NCBI GenBank assembly: GCA_018818785.1
Contig: JAHIRF010000006.1
Coordinates: 186,001 to 250,000 of the forward strand
Reading direction: 5' to 3'
DNA length: 64,000 nt
From: Thermoplasmatota archaeon
Lineage (GTDB): Archaea; Thermoplasmatota; Thermoplasmata; UBA10834
In this document: positions 15,461-26,694 of the stretch, piece after piece
How positions within the stretch are numbered: the first letter of the stretch is position 1
Layout: every line of letters begins with the position of its first letter
Notes under the pieces: generated by a model
What the model was told of the DNA's origin: nothing
What the model saw: the letters and a program-made list of their open reading frames with translations, nothing else
The model's database searches: none
Translations under genes and position numbers: made by a program

Positions 15461-15521
15461 CTTAATATACCCAGCGCTTCGAAATAATGTCGGGGAAAGT
15501 TCATATATTTTGGAAGGCCTT
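15461..15521 (+). promoter_or_regulatory. Two TATA-like boxes ahead of the peptide transporter operon
   Basis: CTTAATATAC (15461-15470) and TTCATATATTTT (15510-15521) are both good TATA candidates. The first would give transcription near 15490-15495, the second near 15545. Either leaves the preferred ATG 15577 with a short leader that contains GGAGG and GAGAGG. Confidence 0.55.
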
Positions 15522-15576
15522 AGCAGTGATTAGTTTTCCCCCTATGGAGTGGGACAAAACGGAGGATGAGAGAGGC

Positions 15577-18500
15577 ATGATAAATAGAGCAATACTAGCG
15601 GGCTTTGCAGTGCTGCTAACCGTAATGTCTGCTTTTGCGTTTTTACCGGCAAAAGCGGTTTCGGCAGCAGCAAATGAAGACGTGTTGTATATTGCTATGC
15701 AGCAGGATATTCCTGACTTCAACAATTACAACCTCGGTACCAACAGCGTGTGGAAGGCTCACGTGATAAACAACTGTTTTGAAGGCCTTTCGGCCACTGA
15801 CTTCGACTTGAATACGATCAAGTTGTTAGCAGAGGATTGGACTTTTGACGAGGTCGCCCTTACCGTGGATGTCACTATCCGACAGGGAGTGAAGTTCCAC
15901 GACGGCACTACGATGACCTCAGCGGACGTCTACTTCTCGTATCTGATGGCGAGAGATGGAACGACCTACGCTGACAGGATCATCCAGGCATTCGACCAGA
16001 ACGACGACGATGTGGTGAACGAGACCGAGATGAAGGAGGGTCTGATCGTAGACGAGGACGATGAATATCATGTGACATTCGTGATGGCCAAGCAGTACGG
16101 CCAGTTCTTCACGAGCACATTATCAGTACCCATAGTTCCGAAGCACATATGGGAAGACCATGTAGACGCTGACTCTAAGGTGGATATCACATGGGGAAAC
16201 GACGTTGCTGCGACCATCGGAACTGGACCATGGAAGTATGATAGCGGAGTCTCCAACTCGTACAGAGTTGTCAAGACCTTCGACGACTACTGGGGGAAGG
16301 ACTTCGTGACCCCGGCGGGCATGCCGACCTTCCCGAGAGTCCTTGATACGTTGTACTTCAAGATTTACAGCAACTTGGACACCGCGATTCTAGCACTCCA
16401 AGGAGGCGATGTCGACTACATCGCATGGACCGTGACCTCAGGTCGTGTTCCAGCTCTCCAGAGCGACCCGAACATCGGTCTCGAGTACATGTCTGATTCA
16501 GGGTACTTCTACCTGGCGTTCAACATGAAGAAAGAGCCGATGAACAACCTGACCTTCAGGAAGGCTGTTTCCCATATGATCGACAAGAACCAGATCGTCG
16601 ATATTTACATGGGTGGATTCGGTCAGGCTGGTTCTGCAGCCGTCTCGCCGTTCTTCGGTGAATGGTACAACCCAGCGGTCGAGAAGTATCCCTTTGACAT
16701 AGCACTTGCCGAGGAGATGCTCGACGATGCCGGATATATCGATGTCAACGGCGATGGCTGGAGGGAGCTGCCTGGTGGCGACCTGATGGACAAGATAACC
16801 TTGCTCTGCCCACCTGCGGACTACGACCCCGTCAGGATAAGAGCGGGACAGATGATAGCGACCAACATGAGATTGGCAGGTATCAACGTCGAGGCGAAGG
16901 CAATCGATTTCAACACACTCGTTGCCAAGCTGACCGCGTTCGACTACCAGATGCTTGAACTTGGTTGGACCTTCACGGGCTACACGGAATGTGTCAGCGT
17001 CCTGTTCGACATATACAGCCCGACTGCGGGATCGAACTCGTGGGGATTCTGGTCAGACGCCAACCCGAACCCATGGTATTCTTCGCTCGGCGGTGTGAGC
17101 ACGCTCGCTGACGAAACGACCCAGGCCATGGCGGATGATTTCGTCGACCTTGAGGACCAAGCGAGAGAGACTTTCGATATAGCGGATCAGATTGACTATG
17201 TCAAGCAGGGGCAGGCGATCGTAGCCGATGCGGTCGTGTGTAACGTCCTGTACTACAGGGTGAACGTCGAGGCGCACAACAAGATATACACCAACTGGAC
17301 GGTGTTCGACGGCACGCTCATCAACCCCTTCTGCTTCGCGGTGCTCGAGTATTCGGGCACAGGCGGAACGACTGGCGGAGGAGCTGTCACAACAGGCCTT
17401 GACGCAGGACTCACGATGGCAGAGAAGGTGGCCTGTGATGATAGCGTCAATGCCTACGTGCTCGCAATAGATGACATGGGAGAGCCGATCGCGGGTGCGA
17501 CTGTTGCGGTAGAAGCGACCAACGGAGTGGCGACAGTATCACCAGCATCGGGAACCACTTCTGCCAGCGGGGTGTTCGAGTTCACCGTGACTGGAACGGC
17601 TTCCGGTATTGCCACGGTATGGGCGAATGTGACAAGTGAGGCCTTGACAGCTAGCGATTTCTCGAGCTTGCTGGTCACATCACTTGGCGGCATCGGAGCT
17701 TCGATGATGCCAGCCAAGACCGTCCTCGAGACAGGAGAAAGCATGGATGTTGATGTCCTAGTGACCGATGTGAACGGAGACCCAGTGGAGGGCGCCACCG
17801 TCACTATCGATCCGTACCTGCTCGGTTATGGTTCGATCGATCCCACCACGGATGTTACGGGTGCTGATGGAATGGTCACCCTTGTGTATACTGCACCGGA
17901 GGATGTCATTCAGAACCAGCATCAGATCGTGACCCTTGCAGCTTCGGTGAGCCATGAGAAATATACGCTGACCAATCTGGCCACGAGCACCATATTGGTA
18001 TACAACCCAGCAGCACCGATATGGCACATGACCACGATCGATTCGGTGTCCACAACGGCTCTGAGCCAAGCATCACCGACCGCGACCATAACGGTCATGG
18101 CGATGGATGTGGACGGAGATCCGATCGAGGGCGAGATTCTAGGCATTACCTACACTAACGACTCGCTCGTAGACACCCCGGAAACCGATTTGGTAACGGA
18201 TGCATCAGGCATGGCGACTTTCGATGTGACCTTCGATGATATCGGAACCGATGCGGCTCTGATGGTCACGATAGGCAACCGTTCGTTGGCCAATTCGATC
18301 ATGGACTCCGTGACACTGACATATTCCGATACGGGTGCGTTAACGGATATGTATGGTGGATATGTGGAATACGCGACACCAAAGTTCGTCGATGTGTGGG
18401 GCACAATCGATGTGACCATCAATGTCTTCGACAGCCAGGGCAACCCTGCAGATGGGGTCACGGGTAGCGTCGTGGTCGCCGCGACCGCCAATGGTCAGTT

Positions 18501-20001
18501 GACCGACTGGTCCGGAACCGAATACAACTCCCTGTTCGACTATGTGGGTATCAACATCGTGACAGATGGAGATGGCCAGAACATCGTCACTGCAGGATCG
18601 TACTCCGCACCGGAGTACCTTGAAGGGTGGTTCTGGAACGATGTCACTGAGGAATATGATATCCCCTTGGACATAGTGGGTGTCGAGATAGCCGGAGGAG
18701 TCTATGAAATGACCATAGAAGGTGTGGATTTGGCCCACTTGGACCTTGCGATGGACCTGTTCATGGTGCCAGACTCGACAGCGGACTACAACTGGGACAC
18801 CTTCAACCACGACATATATGGTCAGACGACGATTGCAGGCCACTACGGCTACGGAAGGGCCATGAGCTTCACGACCGTCACATACGAGGTCGATAAGCCC
18901 GTCCTGCAGGCCAAGGCATCGGAGTTCGACATGTCGCCGGTGACTGTGATTGCGTATGATGAGAACGGCGTCGTGATAGATGGAGCCGAGATCGCCATCT
19001 ACGAGATAGGCGGCCCGATCCCCGAGCTGCCCTATAGCGACTACAATGTATCTGACGATGGAGTCAAGATGACCCCGGCCACCGGAGAGGTTACAATGAA
19101 CCTTACCGCAGCTGCATACGATACAGTCAGTGAAGGATACGATGCAGTCGTGACGAAGACGAACCCCGAGGTATACATTGCGGCCTATGTCGACGGATCG
19201 ATGACATTGGCGAGTCAGACACAGTTGGTCATTCAGCCGCTCAGAGAGTCTGTATATGTCACGCCGACCCAGATCGTCGATGTGAGGATGATCGGCGACG
19301 ATGTGTACGCGACCGTCGAAGTGCTGGATGCCACCGGAGCACCATATGCGGACCTCCCGGTCAGCATCGGTGTTAGTACGGGAACGGCAGTCACTCCGAC
19401 AGTTGTCACCGACGCAGATGGTATGGCTACCTTCGTGATAGACACCTCAGGGATTGCCAATGCTGAGGCCGCACTCATCGCAGCTGGAATAACCACGGGC
19501 GGAACACCCGAGGCTGGTACTGCGAGGATGGTCATAGCGGTCAAGAACATGGCACCTGAGATCGAGTTGTCTTCACCGATCGCGGATGGAGAGACATCGT
19601 TGGCAGAGGTCATGGGTATGATCTACGATTCCAACGGAATCGCGTCCGCGACCCTGGCCCTTGATGATGGCAGTGCGAGTGCACTCACCGTCACCGCGGG
19701 ATCCAAGGCGGTAGTGGTATCACATGCCCTTGAGGACCTTGCGACTGGCGAGCACACGATAGTCATAACCGCAACCGACTCGCTCGGTGTATCGAGCGAG
19801 ACAACGGTGACATTCACCTTGACTGACGGTGGCACGGACTTGTTGCCATGGATCATTGCAGCAGTCGGGTGGATCGTGGCGGCAGTCGTGATCGTCATGA
19901 TGTTCCTCAAGATGAAGGGACCATCGGGACCAAAAGAGAACCCGGATGGGATGGCATTCGAGGAACCTGCGGAGCCAGTGGAAGAGGAGAAGAAGGAATA
20001 G
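15577..20001 (+). CDS. Oligopeptide-binding protein (SBP family 5) fused to Ig-like repeats and a C-terminal membrane anchor
   Basis: 1474 residues. A signal peptide (MINRAILAGF... to PAKAVSAAA) precedes a family-5 extracellular solute-binding domain (about 35-590; landmarks QGVKFHDGTTMTSADVYFS and NLTFRKAVSHMIDKNQIV). A Gly/Thr linker leads into six or seven Ig-like units of invasin/Big_1 type (about 610-1430). Recurring turns are D.NGDPVEGATV and D.DGMATFV. A final helix (LLPWIIAAVGWIVAAVVIVMMF) and an acidic tail anchor it in the membrane. The Ig string would hold the binding domain away from the membrane or in the cell wall layer. Typical homologues are 500-700 residues. ATG 15577 has GAGAGG upstream; ATG 15544 and 15487 are in frame. 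It heads the dpp/opp-like operon. Confidence 0.92.
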   Translation: MINRAILAGFAVLLTVMSAFAFLPAKAVSAAANEDVLYIAMQQDIPDFNNYNLGTNSVWKAHVINNCFEGLSATDFDLNTIKLLAEDWTFDEVALTVDVTIRQGVKFHDGTTMTSADVYFSYLMARDGTTYADRIIQAFDQNDDDVVNETEMKEGLIVDEDDEYHVTFVMAKQYGQFFTSTLSVPIVPKHIWEDHVDADSKVDITWGNDVAATIGTGPWKYDSGVSNSYRVVKTFDDYWGKDFVTPAGMPTFPRVLDTLYFKIYSNLDTAILALQGGDVDYIAWTVTSGRVPALQSDPNIGLEYMSDSGYFYLAFNMKKEPMNNLTFRKAVSHMIDKNQIVDIYMGGFGQAGSAAVSPFFGEWYNPAVEKYPFDIALAEEMLDDAGYIDVNGDGWRELPGGDLMDKITLLCPPADYDPVRIRAGQMIATNMRLAGINVEAKAIDFNTLVAKLTAFDYQMLELGWTFTGYTECVSVLFDIYSPTAGSNSWGFWSDANPNPWYSSLGGVSTLADETTQAMADDFVDLEDQARETFDIADQIDYVKQGQAIVADAVVCNVLYYRVNVEAHNKIYTNWTVFDGTLINPFCFAVLEYSGTGGTTGGGAVTTGLDAGLTMAEKVACDDSVNAYVLAIDDMGEPIAGATVAVEATNGVATVSPASGTTSASGVFEFTVTGTASGIATVWANVTSEALTASDFSSLLVTSLGGIGASMMPAKTVLETGESMDVDVLVTDVNGDPVEGATVTIDPYLLGYGSIDPTTDVTGADGMVTLVYTAPEDVIQNQHQIVTLAASVSHEKYTLTNLATSTILVYNPAAPIWHMTTIDSVSTTALSQASPTATITVMAMDVDGDPIEGEILGITYTNDSLVDTPETDLVTDASGMATFDVTFDDIGTDAALMVTIGNRSLANSIMDSVTLTYSDTGALTDMYGGYVEYATPKFVDVWGTIDVTINVFDSQGNPADGVTGSVVVAATANGQLTDWSGTEYNSLFDYVGINIVTDGDGQNIVTAGSYSAPEYLEGWFWNDVTEEYDIPLDIVGVEIAGGVYEMTIEGVDLAHLDLAMDLFMVPDSTADYNWDTFNHDIYGQTTIAGHYGYGRAMSFTTVTYEVDKPVLQAKASEFDMSPVTVIAYDENGVVIDGAEIAIYEIGGPIPELPYSDYNVSDDGVKMTPATGEVTMNLTAAAYDTVSEGYDAVVTKTNPEVYIAAYVDGSMTLASQTQLVIQPLRESVYVTPTQIVDVRMIGDDVYATVEVLDATGAPYADLPVSIGVSTGTAVTPTVVTDADGMATFVIDTSGIANAEAALIAAGITTGGTPEAGTARMVIAVKNMAPEIELSSPIADGETSLAEVMGMIYDSNGIASATLALDDGSASALTVTAGSKAVVVSHALEDLATGEHTIVITATDSLGVSSETTVTFTLTDGGTDLLPWIIAAVGWIVAAVVIVMMFLKMKGPSGPKENPDGMAFEEPAEPVEEEKKE

Positions 20002-20161: not shown

Positions 20162-21151
20162 ATGGCAGGGATGGCTCGATATGTGGTCGCGCGGAGCATT
20201 CAGACATTCATAACCCTGCTCATCATCCTCACGCTGATTTTCATAATGTTCGAATCGCTCCCAGCGAGGCCTCAAGACCTCCTTAGGACTTCGCCAGCCA
20301 TTCAGCAGTCGCAGATAGATTACATGACAAGCCTTTACGGCTATGATCGACCAGTCCACGAACGATACGCGATGTATATGGTGAATATGCTGACATTCGA
20401 TTTTGGCATCTCGTTCAGCAGAGCTATCGAAGTCTCGAGCATATTAGAGGAACGGATACCTAAAACACTGCTGCTGTTCGGTGGAGCCACGATACTCGCA
20501 TATGTCATAGGCATATACCTCGGAGCCTTGATTGCCTGGAGGAGGGGAGGGGCATTGGATGGCGGCACGGTCGTCGTCAGCCTGGTGTTCTACAACATGC
20601 CATCCTTCTGGATCGGCCTCATATTCCTTGTCATATTCGCATCCCAGTTGGATTGGTTCCCATTAACGGGGTGGTACGATGCGACTGATAGCATGCCATT
20701 CTTCGCATCGGGCACGCTTGGATTCAAGATCCTTGACATCGGATGGCACTTATTCCTGCCCATGTTAGTGTTATTGCTTCTATCACTTGCAGGCACCATA
20801 CTCTTGATGAGGACGGCCATGCTCGACGTGATAGGCGAGAATTACATGATCACGGCGAAGGCGATCGGCCTTCCTGAGAGGAAGGTGCTGTTCAAACACG
20901 GCGCTAGGAACGCCATGCTGCCCGTCGTGACTTCGTTCATAATCGCATTCGTTTTCGCAATAGGCGGAGCCGTGGTCCTTGAGAACGTTTTCAGCTTCCC
21001 AGGCATGGGACAACTATACATCCAATCACTGAACCAGCTCGACTTCCCGGTCGCCGAAGCCACACTGTACATAATCACCCTGATGGTGTTGCTCGGCAAC
21101 TTCGTTGCAGACATGCTGTACGGATATCTTGACCCGAGGGTGCGCATTTGA
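20162..21151 (+). CDS. Peptide ABC transporter permease, DppB/OppB type
   Basis: 329 residues with six predicted membrane helices. The N-terminal YVVARSIQTFITLLIILTLIF helix and the following LPARPQDLLRT loop are typical of DppB. The ABC-coupling EAA-like region is ITAKAIGLPERKVLFKHGARNAMLPVV, followed by VVLENVFSFPGMGQL. Unlike its partners, this subunit has no added domain. Its stop overlaps the next start by one base (TGATG). An internal ATG at 20171 is a possible start. Confidence 0.95.
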   Translation: MAGMARYVVARSIQTFITLLIILTLIFIMFESLPARPQDLLRTSPAIQQSQIDYMTSLYGYDRPVHERYAMYMVNMLTFDFGISFSRAIEVSSILEERIPKTLLLFGGATILAYVIGIYLGALIAWRRGGALDGGTVVVSLVFYNMPSFWIGLIFLVIFASQLDWFPLTGWYDATDSMPFFASGTLGFKILDIGWHLFLPMLVLLLLSLAGTILLMRTAMLDVIGENYMITAKAIGLPERKVLFKHGARNAMLPVVTSFIIAFVFAIGGAVVLENVFSFPGMGQLYIQSLNQLDFPVAEATLYIITLMVLLGNFVADMLYGYLDPRVRI

Positions 21152-23433
21152 TGGAAGAAACGAAGACCGACGAGACCAGCAAGAGACCCGATGCGAGGGA
21201 GCTTCAGGAGGCAGGCCAGAAGGCGATCAGAAAGTTCTGGAAGAACTTCAAGGCTACCTGGAAACTCTATAGGCAGTCGAAGACCGGTATCGCGGGACTG
21301 GCTATCGTCGTGGGGTTCTTCATCATGGCACTGGGAGCTCCCTGGCTCGCTCCATACGACAAGGACTTCCGAGCACCTGCGACCGACACCTTCGTTGCGG
21401 ATTACGCGTTGCTGAACCTGACAGAGGGGCGGGACTGGACCAGATTGCTAGGGCTGACAGACTCTCTGAACAGAGACCACCCACTCGAAGGGATATTGGC
21501 GTACTCTGAGGAGGGAATGGCTACAGTCTACCCAGTCACGCGTGGAACAAGCGCAGAGACGGAAGAGATCGGGATTGAGATCAGCGACCCCTTAGCGATA
21601 AATCTACCGGCCAACGCGACCTACATGAACCACGTGCTCTTCTCGACGACTTTCTTCTACATAGTCAACACCACGGATCCAGTGGCTGGGACTTCGACCC
21701 TGTATGAATACAGCTCATTCATCCCAACCGCCACAGCTAGTACCTATGAGCTCCTCCGGCAGTACGAGTTACCGTTCGTGCCCAAGTATAACTCGAACCT
21801 CTGGAATGGGTTCTCATTCGTCTATCCGAGCGGCAGGCTCGCGCTCGCATTCGCGGACGACCACAATGTGTGGATGATAAGCAAGAGAGCCGCGACCATA
21901 TATGATTCCGGGAGCGAGTCCTTCGACTACATCAACAATCTCACGATCGATGACAGCACGATAATCGGGAACCCGGTAGTCGTGGACGGTGACTTCGATA
22001 ACGGTAGCATGCTATTCGTCCCGACAGACGTGGGCATACGTGCGTACAGACTCAATGTGACCAAGACCCTGGTTACTAGGACGGTCACCGACATCACGAT
22101 CGAGGGGTTGGTTTGGACCAGCAACTACACGATCGACGGGGAGACCTATGAGCCCGTGGCCGGAAATAACATGCTCATATTCCCATTCCCATACGGGCCG
22201 ACAACCGCTCTTGGAAAGGAGTACGTCGCACTTGCTGCCACGGACGGCACGGTCGCTGCCTATGACAGGGTGACCGGCAACTTGACCTGGTCCACCAAGC
22301 CCATGTTGACTGGCGTGAGAAGCTTCGATATCACTTCGCTCTATTCTGCCCCTGATTTCCTGGTGATGGTCGGACAGACCAACGATGAACGTGGCATGAT
22401 AGCTGGCCTTGACAAGAAAACTGGCAGGGTGGGCGAGAACAATACAGTGTTCACCACGGTAAGCGGGTATCTGAACAGCGACCCTCAGTATGTCGCAGGT
22501 CAGCTGATGTATGTGTTCAGCACGGATGAGGGGGCGATATACTTGGCGAATTCATTGATGAAGGTCAATGCGACCTTCAGCGCCCCTGGAGGAGGAGCGG
22601 TCACACCCGTGGCATACTTGGGTAACATATACATCGAGATGAGCAGAGCAGGCAACTACTTCGCAGTGGTGACCGAGAGCAACCAACTGTTCCTTGAGAC
22701 GCTCACTGGTGTGAACGTGGCCCCTCTGGCCCCTGGAACCTATCCATCGGGCAACTACTATCCGCTTGGGACAGACTATGAGGGACATGATATTCTGACG
22801 CAGCTGATGTGGGGAACCAGAGCGGAGCTGCTCGTCGGTATAACAGCGGCGTTCTTCTCAGTGGTCATCGGCACGATCGTGGGTCTGGTCGCGGGATTCT
22901 ATGGAGGCATGCTCGACGATATACTGATGCGCGCTACCGATGTGATGTTGAGCCTACCCTATCTGGTTATCATGCTATTGTTCGCAGCGGTCTTCGGACC
23001 ATCACTTCTCAACATCATCATCATATTCGCGATATTATCATGGGCGGGCATAGCGAGGGTCATACGTTCGGTCACCCTCTCGTTCAAGGAAAGGGCCTTC
23101 GTGGATGCCGCCAGAGTAGCTGGCGCATCAGATAATAGGCTAATATTCAAGCACATAGGACCGAACGTGCTTCCGTACACGTTCCTCTACATGACTTTCA
23201 ACATCAGCGGAGCCATCGTGACCGAAGCCATCCTGGCGTTCCTGGGATTCGGTGATCCTACAAACATAACGTGGGGCATGATGTTGCAGTTCCTGCAGAT
23301 CAGCGGACACACCCTCGACGCACCCTGGTGGCTCCTGCCTCCAGGGATAGCCATAACCCTGCTCTCGCTCGCGTTCTATCTGATGGGTAGATCGTTCGAT
23401 GAGGTAGTCAACCCGCGTTTGAGGAAGAGGTGA
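21151..23433 (+). CDS. Peptide ABC transporter permease, DppC/OppC type, with a large beta-propeller-like insertion
   Basis: 760 residues against about 300 for normal DppC. The first membrane helix (GIAGLAIVVGFFIMALGAPW, ~46-65) and the LAPYDKDFRAP loop are standard. So is everything from LGTDYEGHDILTQ (~540) onward: TM2-6 and the EAA-like segment VDAARVAGASDNRLIFKH. Between them are about 460 extra residues. They are beta-rich and Asn/Thr-rich, with PQQ-like blade motifs such as VALAATDGTVAAYDRVTGNL and AGLDKKTGRVGEN, consistent with a beta-propeller. By topology the insertion faces outside. It may contact the binding protein or peptides. The start ATG overlaps the dppB-type stop; the next gene follows by 4 bases. 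Confidence 0.92.
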   Translation: MEETKTDETSKRPDARELQEAGQKAIRKFWKNFKATWKLYRQSKTGIAGLAIVVGFFIMALGAPWLAPYDKDFRAPATDTFVADYALLNLTEGRDWTRLLGLTDSLNRDHPLEGILAYSEEGMATVYPVTRGTSAETEEIGIEISDPLAINLPANATYMNHVLFSTTFFYIVNTTDPVAGTSTLYEYSSFIPTATASTYELLRQYELPFVPKYNSNLWNGFSFVYPSGRLALAFADDHNVWMISKRAATIYDSGSESFDYINNLTIDDSTIIGNPVVVDGDFDNGSMLFVPTDVGIRAYRLNVTKTLVTRTVTDITIEGLVWTSNYTIDGETYEPVAGNNMLIFPFPYGPTTALGKEYVALAATDGTVAAYDRVTGNLTWSTKPMLTGVRSFDITSLYSAPDFLVMVGQTNDERGMIAGLDKKTGRVGENNTVFTTVSGYLNSDPQYVAGQLMYVFSTDEGAIYLANSLMKVNATFSAPGGGAVTPVAYLGNIYIEMSRAGNYFAVVTESNQLFLETLTGVNVAPLAPGTYPSGNYYPLGTDYEGHDILTQLMWGTRAELLVGITAAFFSVVIGTIVGLVAGFYGGMLDDILMRATDVMLSLPYLVIMLLFAAVFGPSLLNIIIIFAILSWAGIARVIRSVTLSFKERAFVDAARVAGASDNRLIFKHIGPNVLPYTFLYMTFNISGAIVTEAILAFLGFGDPTNITWGMMLQFLQISGHTLDAPWWLLPPGIAITLLSLAFYLMGRSFDEVVNPRLRKR

Positions 23434-23437
23434 TGAT

Positions 23438-24838
23438 ATGACCCTGCTAGAAGTTAAGAACCTCAAAGTGCACTTCAAGATCCATAACGGCTGGGTGAGA
23501 GCCGTGGATGATGTCACCTTCAGCATCGATTCAGGCGAGACCATGGGCCTCGTCGGGGAGAGCGGATGCGGCAAGACCACGGCCGCGTATGCCATCACGC
23601 AGCTCCTGCCGCCGAACGGCTACATCAAGGGCGGGATGATACTCTTCAAGGAGCCGCCCGAGGTCACCGCCCTCAGAGAGGAGTACGACCGCACTTTTGA
23701 GAAAACACCTAAGATGAGGCAGAAGGAAATCGCCCGAGTGAAGAATGGTCTCAAGCCGCTGCAGGACGAATTCGGTAAGCTCACACAGCAGAAGAGACAG
23801 CTGGAGAAAGAGAAGGCGACCGCCCTTGCAGAGCTGACCAAGCAAATCAAGAAACTCGATAGCAGCATGGAGAAGAACGCCCCAGTTCCGTCGGAGCTGA
23901 CCAGACAAATGGCGGAGCTCACGACCAAGAAGGAAACTCTGGAAAAGAAGGACCCCATCCCAACGGAGCTGACGAGGCAGATGGAGGGACCCGGCATCAA
24001 GATTCGGGATCTTGAACTCAAGCTCTCTGCGCTGACCTATTCACATGACCTCCTTCGGATTTCGATGCGTAAGGACGGTTCACTCGACGACTACAACGAG
24101 AAGATCCGTGCGATACGCTGGACGGAGATCTCCATGATATTCCAGGGGGCTATGAACGCGTTCAATCCGGTCTTCAGGATCGGTGACCTCATAGTGGAAG
24201 CAATCCAGTTGCACGAAGATGTGGACGACGAGACCGCTAAGAAAAGGGCCATGGACCTCTTCGAGTTCGTTGGCATCTCCCCAGATAGAATAAGCAATTA
24301 CCCTCATGAGTTCAGCGGTGGCATGAAGCAGAGGGCGATGATCGCGCTCGCGCTCGCCCTCAAACCATCGTTCATCATAGCCGACGAGCCCACGACCGCA
24401 CTCGATGTGATAACACAGGACAGGGTCCTGATGGAGATCAAGAAACTTCAAGAGAAGCTCAACATGGCCATGATGATCATCACACACGATGTCTCCGTGG
24501 TCGCAGAGGTCTCCGACAAGATCGGGGTGATGTATGCGGGCATGTTGATGGAGATCGGAGAGACGTCTCAGGTGTTCAAGAACACCGCTCACCCGTATAC
24601 CGCAGGCCTCCTGAACTCATTCCCCTCGATAAAGGGGGAGAGGAAGAGGTTGGAGACCATCCCAGGATTCCCGCCGGACCTGGTCAACCCACCCAGTGGT
24701 TGTCCTTTCCATCCAAGATGCCAATACGCCCAGACAAGATGTTCGGAGAAGAGGCCAAAGGGTATGGAGATCGAACCAGGCCACACGGCTTACTGTCATT
24801 TCGCCGGAGAGCTATGGGACAGGCTCAGGAGGGGATGA
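23438..24838 (+). CDS. Peptide ABC transporter ATPase, DppD/OppD type, with coiled-coil insertion
   Basis: 466 residues against about 330 normally. Walker A GESGCGKTT (~40-48), Q-loop MIFQGAMNAFNP (~233-244), signature FSGGMKQRAMIALAL, Walker B plus ADEPTTALD, and the OppD C-terminal Cys motif GCPFHPRCQYAQTRC are all intact, so it should be an active ATPase. Residues ~75-222, between Walker A and the Q-loop, are an insertion rich in Glu, Lys, Gln and Leu with strong coiled-coil character. It includes an internal repeat, PVPSELTRQM and PIPTELTRQM, 24 residues apart. The insertion interrupts the point where OppD normally has only a short loop. It overlaps the next gene by about one base. Confidence 0.93.
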   Translation: MTLLEVKNLKVHFKIHNGWVRAVDDVTFSIDSGETMGLVGESGCGKTTAAYAITQLLPPNGYIKGGMILFKEPPEVTALREEYDRTFEKTPKMRQKEIARVKNGLKPLQDEFGKLTQQKRQLEKEKATALAELTKQIKKLDSSMEKNAPVPSELTRQMAELTTKKETLEKKDPIPTELTRQMEGPGIKIRDLELKLSALTYSHDLLRISMRKDGSLDDYNEKIRAIRWTEISMIFQGAMNAFNPVFRIGDLIVEAIQLHEDVDDETAKKRAMDLFEFVGISPDRISNYPHEFSGGMKQRAMIALALALKPSFIIADEPTTALDVITQDRVLMEIKKLQEKLNMAMMIITHDVSVVAEVSDKIGVMYAGMLMEIGETSQVFKNTAHPYTAGLLNSFPSIKGERKRLETIPGFPPDLVNPPSGCPFHPRCQYAQTRCSEKRPKGMEIEPGHTAYCHFAGELWDRLRRG

Positions 24839-26694
24839 TGGGTATGCAACCTACTACACACGTCATCATCAAGGTGAGGGGTCTCAAGAAGTACTTCGAG
24901 CTGAAGAAAGGGTTCTTCTCTTTCGGAAAAGAGCCCATCAAGGTAAAGGCGGTCGATGATGTCAACTTCGACATCCGGTCTGGTGAAGTGCTTGGACTCG
25001 TCGGAGAGAGCGGATGCGGCAAGACTACGGTAGGTAGACTGCTCACGCGGCTCGAGGACCCCACAGAGGGCTTTGTGTTCTTCCTGGGCAGGGACATAGC
25101 GCTCTTGGAAGGGCAGGATGTCAAGGTGTTCAGACGCAACATACAGATGGTCTTCCAGGATCCGTATGAGTCCCTCAACCCGAGGACAACCGTGCTCCAG
25201 ACGGTCATGGAGCCACTCATAAACCACAACATAGGAGACACCCCAGAAGACAAGATAGAGAGAGTCATCCAAGCATTGGAGGATGCCGGGTTGGCTCCTG
25301 CGAAGGAGTATCTGAACAGGTTCCCTCACGAGCTCAGCGGTGGCCAGAGACAGCGGGTGTCGGTCGCGCGTGCGCTCGTGATCAAACCCAAAGTCATTGT
25401 TGCTGACGAACCTGTTTCCATGCTCGATGTCTCGATACGAGCGGGTGTGCTGAACCTGATGCTGGACCTGAGGGACAAATACGGCATACCCTACCTATTC
25501 ATCACCCACGACATCGCAGTCGCCAGATACATCAGCGATAGGCTAGCGGTCATGTACCTTGGCAGGGTGGTGGAGATCGGGGAAACGGACAGCATCATAC
25601 AGTCACCTAAACATCCCTACACGCAGGCTCTGATTTCTGCGGTGCCCGTTCCTGACCCTGACGCAAAGCATGGACGTATCAAGATCAAGGGAGAGGTGCC
25701 GAGCGCTGCGAATGTCCCGCTCGGATGCCGATTCAGACCGAGATGCCCGAAGGCCTTTGAGGAATGTGGATGGCAGGGAGAAGATCTGGTCGAATGGCTG
25801 GAAGAGAACGGAGACTTGAGCCCTGATAGCGTACTGACCACGGAAGTGAGTAAGCTGCACCCGGATGAATTCGTGCTGGGGTTCCATCTCAAGGAAGGCA
25901 TGGACCTGGAGAAGGTCCTAGGGTTCGTCAGAGAGAGAACATCCCAGACCAGGGATGCGAACCCGATGTTCAGGGCGATCGATAGGATCGACACCGTCTT
26001 GACTGACCGAGCCATAGAGATACGGTGCGACTCGGCCGAGTTATCCGCCAATGACCTCGCAGCAGAACTATTCATGGAACTCGAATCGATCGTACGCTAC
26101 AAAGAGATCGACCATCCGATGCATGGCATCATCACCGGTATGAGCAGGGTAACTAACAAGTTGACCGTGGATGTCGATAGTGGAACTGCCGAGAACCTCG
26201 ACACGATAGAGGCTTTCCTGAAGGATTTCGTCAAACATTACCGCAAGATGAGCAGACCAGAGTTCAGGGGCGTCAAGACGATCTCATCCAGCTCCTCTGG
26301 GAGGACGGTCACGGTCACTTGCGACGCATCCAAGGAACCCGGATACAAAGTTGCCAAGGACGTCTCCCGCCTGATTGCAGACATCTACGTCAAGGAGGAC
26401 ATGGATGGTCTCGGAGGACTCCTGCTCCCGATCAAGGTCAAAGGCAGCCGGATTACTGTGAAGATAATGGGCCCAGACGAGAACTGGAAGAAGCTGCAAT
26501 CGAGCTTCAAGGATTTCCTGCGCGCGAAGGGTGAGAGCGGCGAGCACAGATGCGCGGCAGCCGTGGCGGACATCTCGATCAAGTCGATCAAGGGAACCCA
26601 TGGCGCCGTTGTCGTGAAGTTCAGGACTGTCGTGGAGCCGCCACAGTTCGATGTCGGCGAACAACAGGTGGCCTGCTATCTGTATAAGAACTGA
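24838..26694 (+). CDS. Peptide ABC transporter ATPase, DppF/OppF type, with ~310-residue C-terminal extension
   Basis: 618 residues against about 320 normally. The ATPase part has Walker A GESGCGKTT, Q-loop MVFQDPYESLNPR, signature LSGGQRQRVSVARAL, Walker B with ADEPVSMLD, and the OppF-type Cys motif GCRFRPRCPKAFEEC near residue 295-310. What follows (~310-618) is an acidic, mixed alpha/beta region that I do not recognise. It includes two stretches of similar rhythm (LFMELESIVRYKEIDHP and FLKDFVKHYRKMSRPEF). ATG codons at 24835, 24838 and 24844 are close together behind AGGAGGGG; 24838 gives good spacing. A frame extends back to 24700 but lies inside the previous gene. Confidence 0.92.
   Translation: MGMQPTTHVIIKVRGLKKYFELKKGFFSFGKEPIKVKAVDDVNFDIRSGEVLGLVGESGCGKTTVGRLLTRLEDPTEGFVFFLGRDIALLEGQDVKVFRRNIQMVFQDPYESLNPRTTVLQTVMEPLINHNIGDTPEDKIERVIQALEDAGLAPAKEYLNRFPHELSGGQRQRVSVARALVIKPKVIVADEPVSMLDVSIRAGVLNLMLDLRDKYGIPYLFITHDIAVARYISDRLAVMYLGRVVEIGETDSIIQSPKHPYTQALISAVPVPDPDAKHGRIKIKGEVPSAANVPLGCRFRPRCPKAFEECGWQGEDLVEWLEENGDLSPDSVLTTEVSKLHPDEFVLGFHLKEGMDLEKVLGFVRERTSQTRDANPMFRAIDRIDTVLTDRAIEIRCDSAELSANDLAAELFMELESIVRYKEIDHPMHGIITGMSRVTNKLTVDVDSGTAENLDTIEAFLKDFVKHYRKMSRPEFRGVKTISSSSSGRTVTVTCDASKEPGYKVAKDVSRLIADIYVKEDMDGLGGLLLPIKVKGSRITVKIMGPDENWKKLQSSFKDFLRAKGESGEHRCAAAVADISIKSIKGTHGAVVVKFRTVVEPPQFDVGEQQVACYLYKN

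Follow-up and report, generated by a model that had tools for sequence, protein, structure and literature searches.

Can a DppC/OppC permease subunit carry a large folded domain in its first outer loop, and if so, what is that domain, how widely is it kept and what may it do? These questions are raised by a permease gene in a 64,000-nucleotide stretch of DNA from a Thermoplasmatota archaeon, called the window here. Type I ABC importers are commonly taken to share one uniform structure, in which the outer loops are small and the binding protein is a separate molecule.

The gene at 21148-23433 (+) is a single reading frame of 761 codons with zero stops; its start codon is TTG and its second codon is ATG. 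Pfam recognized OppC_N at residues 35-76 (2.7e-8, 34.0 bits against a cut-off of 23.9) and BPD_transp_1 at residues 575-760 (2.2e-27, 96.4 bits against a cut-off of 26.4). When the family profile was aligned to E. coli DppC (8z1v_B), the match covered DppC 18-57, ended at APYDP (window residue ~71) and restarted at DppC 78, which is the LGTD segment (window residue ~538). These breakpoints agree with the insert limits in the original prediction (residues 76-539), and its claim that an in-frame insert of ~460 residues lies between APYDKDF and LGTD in an intact permease core was borne out by the reading frame, the Pfam matches and this alignment. The E. coli and M. tuberculosis DppC/OppC proteins (8z1v, 8z21, 8wd9, 8j5q) and the window permease align end to end over TM1, LGTD and the core, and their operon partners are alike. 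In contrast, the loop from TM1 to LGTD is ~20 residues long and has no folded domain in those proteins (20 residues in 8z1v_B), whereas in the window permease it comprises ~465 residues with a predicted propeller. The short TM1-TM2 outer loop of the solved members is thus absent from the window permease, and the long loop is a variant of the OppC/DppC family, of which loop length is not a defining feature. Five other OppC-like genes in the same genome (315-357 codons) have no insert. The features of the locus, all on the plus strand, are as follows.

15487..20001, +, substrate-binding protein of 1504 aa, with SBP_bac_5 (112-512), a Big_1 and MG4 Ig-like stalk and a C-terminal hydrophobic anchor
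20162..21151, +, DppB/OppB permease of 329 aa without insert; BPD_transp_1_N covers 4-103
21148..23433, +, DppC/OppC-type permease of 761 aa with the putative propeller insert (Pfam OppC_N and BPD_transp_1)
21277..21357, +, TM1 in the OppC_N domain, residues 44-70, aligned to E. coli DppC 18-57
21367..22749, +, insert, residues 74-534, a predicted BamB/PQQ-type beta-propeller of ~33 strands and probably eight blades (AlphaFold2, Foldseek and profile matches)
22222..22551, +, recognizable PQQ_2/BamB sequence signature, residues 359-468 (Pfam 4.6e-5, BamB profile 4.1e-5)
22591..22758, +, best-conserved stretch, where the insert ends (GGA.TP..LGN..TGNY..V.T) and the return linker (APL.PGTYPSGNYY) follows
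22750..23430, +, second part of the permease core, with the LGTDYEGHD segment, the other transmembrane helices and the EAA region
23438..24838, +, OppD ATPase with a coiled-coil-like insertion at ~residues 90-190 (Pfam and homologue comparison)
24700..26694, +, OppF ATPase with a C-terminal extension of ~300 aa (Pfam and homologue comparison)

In an AlphaFold2 model of the window protein built with 15 homologues, the insert is all-beta, in line with the strong beta character claimed for it, and most of its ten-residue blocks have pLDDT values of 75-95; the transmembrane core is poorly modelled. Foldseek searches with this insert model returned BamB entries as the first PDB matches (probability 1.0), and BamB again came first for a separate model of a DHVE2-group insert (24% identical to the window insert; mean pLDDT 74.7, pTM 0.79). 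The TM-scores of the insert models against these matches are moderate (~0.4-0.65 by the better normalization), as expected when a long-looped propeller is compared with a smaller one. BamB sequences were also the best PDB match of the insert profile, at ~4e-5, which outperformed a phmmer search of the PDB with the insert alone (marginal matches only). BamB, of the PQQ_2 family, is a free-standing lipoprotein that takes part in assembling the bacterial outer membrane; it differs from the insert in that the two are only ~10% identical and the PQQ_2 score of the insert lies under the family cut-off. These models and matches indicate that the insert is a BamB-like beta-propeller, probably with eight blades, a number read from ~33 strands and the eight-bladed best matches rather than counted on coordinates. 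The propeller fold put forward in the original prediction therefore stands: both models are ordered and propeller-like, and BamB, an eight-bladed PQQ-type propeller, was the best PDB match by Foldseek and by profile.

The sequence character of the insert fits the earlier description less uniformly. PQQ_2 was matched at residues 359-468 with 4.6e-5 and 23.6-25.0 bits, under the 27.6-bit cut-off that several homologues exceed (L123, L125, L126 and L034). As the insert is the sole PQQ_2 match in the window's genome, its presence cannot be put down to propellers of this kind being generally common there. The PQQ-style blade repeats reported before were clear only as two copies of 'A..D..TG.V' at ~residues 365-428 rather than along the whole insert, and profile self-comparison of the insert gave no significant internal repeats. 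Likewise, N-x-S/T sites are indeed numerous, but the excess is mild (10 in the insert against 5.0 +/- 2.0 in shuffles, P about 0.016; the core has 2); most homologues exceed their own shuffles as well, with the exception of part of the f18-type group. In addition, the insert is acidic (49 D+E against 24 K+R), has zero cysteines and contains no hydrophobic segment, its top Kyte-Doolittle mean being 0.91 compared with 2.2 for TM1. Mean column identity is 0.60 in the insert, 0.84 in the channel and 0.71-0.82 in the insert end and return linker. Conserved residues of the propeller include SNLWN (216-220), GNP (274-276) and GGA.TP...GNY (481-504).

A direct search with the insert found it in 21 of 100 relatives; named genome records that have it number 14, three of them from the DHVE2 group of Thermoplasmatota. 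A plasmid search with the insert gave no match. In 14 other genomes the insert aligned from end to end, with 24-62% identity and 38 invariant columns, which is more than chance would give. Across the phylum the insert profile A2 recovered near inserts only, and the channel core was used as query instead. This search, centred like the other genome searches on Thermoplasmatota, returned OppCs of 700-1171 aa in ~20 families. In those read for the tree, the extra part lies between TM1 and LGTD, with AP..D before it and a P.PP....SGN linker after it. Frame length alone was excluded as evidence for an insert. In the window's family, OppC frames of 480-845 aa were considered as further inserts and rejected, most of them being N-terminal PKD or polytopic additions; the paralogues L070, L111, L110, L112, L113 and L114 of this family have a PKD ectodomain before the core, many extra membrane segments or PEGA-like repeats.

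In an unrooted tree of the channel cores, from which the insert was excluded, a branch with support 97/90 separates 34 OppCs with a loop-1 insert from 21 OppCs that have no loop-1 insert or a different one. OppCs of other lineages (L118:1155-4343, L119, L120, L074, L075 and L079), whose loop-1 domains are not propellers and consist of beta repeats or are helical, fall outside the propeller branch. The insert groups were further compared by hhalign with flanks trimmed and reversed alignments as controls. The window group matched the neighbouring and DHVE2 inserts at 99.8-100% (WIN-DHVE2 99.8%); the window, neighbouring and DHVE2 inserts pooled matched the PQQ-recognized group (f4, f12, f13, f17, f23 and f63) at 96% (WINALL-MID), and that group matched the f18/f10/f26/f9 group at 96% (MID-F18) and f25 at 94% (MID-F25), with all reversed controls at <=0.3%. 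Most groups are so far diverged that profile comparison alone links them. The inserts of f14 (g17 and g61; ACID), which may be Aciduliprofundum-like, and of f22 are linked to each other at 80% and not to the other propellers, so that a propeller is assumed there from position and flanks only. These comparisons of channel cores and inserts indicate that the propeller OppCs are an old subfamily of Thermoplasmatota, and the shared ancestry of their channel cores is consistent with a single origin. As anticipated, homologues of the insert occur in related genomes across the phylum, in the same frame and at the same site. The proposed new permease architecture holds as to the propeller-loop permease itself, which is not peculiar to this genome but the standard form of one OppC subfamily of Thermoplasmatota.

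Some members carry more than one repeat domain in this loop. In L115:1132-4335 (1068 aa) and L117:56-3382 (complement, 1109 aa), a Kelch propeller is nested in the PQQ-type loop: Kelch_3 was matched at 5e-29 and 3e-17, respectively, with PQQ-type sequence on both sides, indicating a propeller within a propeller at the level of sequence. The same Kelch-in-PQQ pattern was read by eye only in L129:1-1734, a fragment of this group. The 1171-aa OppC at L116:1169-4681 contains another repeat region (ASLALD..G.P.IAYYD...LKFA) inside PQQ-type loop sequence.

The operon encodes what is expected around an OppC/DppC permease, namely a binding protein, DppB and two ATPases, and the gene order SBP-B-C-D-F is kept among relatives. 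The binding protein is collinear over ~1500 aa with its homologues in L038, L045, L050 and L108, down to 33% identity, and other propeller members are likewise neighboured by large SBP_bac_5 proteins, which have Ig-like domains or whose C-terminal part is long; L096 and L097 have no binding-protein gene adjoining OppC in the stretch read. A strict pairing of the Ig-stalked binding protein with the propeller was considered and rejected, since insert-free OppC systems in the same genome also have Ig/PKD stalks. The near relatives L038 and L045 share the insertion in OppD and the extension of OppF, both of which are unmatched in L050. In the f18 group (L099, L102, L103, L104 and L105), OppD and OppF seem to be fused (~710-810 aa) next to the propeller OppC. 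Four DppB-DppC pairs on other contigs of the window's genome (L090-L093; G000 contigs C4, C8, C7 and C9) have no ABC ATPase gene by motif in the 12 kb around them, and they may share OppD and OppF of the window operon. The TM1-TM2 region of the window DppB is of usual length. The corresponding loop, beside the scoop, is enlarged in two partner OppBs elsewhere, one of 652 aa (L098:3556-5511, f25) and one of 483 aa (L096:9752-11200, complement, f14).

From the solved DppC topology the insert would lie outside the cell (PMC12136057), in keeping with the extracytoplasmic placement first proposed. In E. coli DppABCDF, DppA caps both DppB and DppC, and the scoop, a helical TM1-TM2 periplasmic region of ~30 residues in DppB rather than DppC, binds DppA and closes off the cavity, and it is in this very region that DppC and DppB differ (PMC12136057). 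The insert of the window permease occupies exactly the TM1-TM2 loop of DppC, the counterpart of the scoop region in the sister subunit. A further likeness is offered by MalF of the maltose importer, a type I importer permease that likewise carries a folded extracytoplasmic domain, P2, in one of its loops. MalF belongs to another permease family, and P2 is a far smaller, Ig-like, non-propeller domain in another loop. This domain is described as contacting the binding protein all through the transport cycle (Daus 2009, cited in PMC3150292); the window propeller would be its functional analogue. By these comparisons we somewhat favour, over any other role, that the propeller serves, within a type I ABC peptide importer, as an immobile extracytoplasmic platform on which the tethered binding protein of the same operon docks. 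Replacing the short TM1-TM2 outer loop of the DppC/OppC subunit, it would overhang the mouth of the channel from the side of DppC, facing the DppB scoop, and would hold or orient the tethered peptide-binding protein so that the released peptide passes into the channel. Weaker conservation in the insert than in the channel is expected for a surface adapting to its partner, and the better conserved end and return linker fit a surface still coupled to the channel. BamB, too, is a non-enzymatic scaffold at a membrane machine. Docking would be the simplest role, with peptide capture and an envelope role as other candidates, and in it the propeller would be important for transport.

It is less likely that the propeller itself binds or size-selects peptides, adding to or replacing the binding protein. 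The system is of the peptide-importer type (SBP_bac_5, oligo_HPY), the insert is large and by topology extracytoplasmic, its rapid divergence between lineages is possible for substrate-facing surfaces, and some members have the extra nested Kelch propellers; moreover, propellers gate peptide access in some peptidases. However, the operon already encodes a dedicated binding protein, and the nearest structural relative, BamB, is a scaffold. It is similarly doubtful, if conceivable, that the first outer loop of OppC is a mounting point for propellers, nested ones included. These would add a second substrate receptor or gate, one fixed to the channel, and peptide selection would then be shared between the permease and its tethered binding protein.

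We give about as little credence to a spacer or shield of the envelope, which would anchor the importer to surface glycoproteins or protect it and have no part in the transport cycle. The modest sequon excess would suit such a role, as would the unrelated ectodomains on other OppCs of the phylum (PKD, PEGA-like, polytopic N-terminal and other beta repeats), by which bulky outer parts seem to be generally favoured. However, the linkers and the last blade by the channel are the best-conserved part of the insert, which suggests coupling to the channel, and one OppC subfamily has kept the domain throughout, whereas paralogues that share its cell and envelope do without it.

An enzymatic, PQQ-dependent quinoprotein domain fused to the permease is very improbable. 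Weak profile matches to PQQ-dependent alcohol dehydrogenases exist, but they span ~70 positions of generic blade signature and are outscored by BamB, a non-enzyme. Enzymes of the methanol-dehydrogenase type have a vicinal Cys-Cys over the PQQ cofactor, which the cysteine-free insert does not have. A pqqC search gave no match, but neither did its controls, and it carries no weight here. Finally, an assembly or frame error joining two genes, suggested by the unusual length and nothing further, is scarcely credible and is refuted by the recurrence of the same frame, site and flanks (AP..D after TM1 and PLPPGTYPSGN before LGTD) in dozens of independently assembled genomes, single-contig ones included.

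The literature searched, with few subscription journals in it, yielded no published description of a propeller-bearing OppC; a DppC/OppC permease with a propeller ectodomain is thus undescribed there, and an entry for this architecture may already exist in sequence databases. The Thermoplasmatota keep a permease whose outer domain, a predicted propeller, is nearly twice the transmembrane core in size, and many of the 700-1100 aa 'ABC permeases' of these genomes bear an unrecognized ectodomain. If docking on the propeller is true, it would provide a very large and separable tool for studying the encounter of binding protein and channel, in archaea with long-stalked binding proteins.
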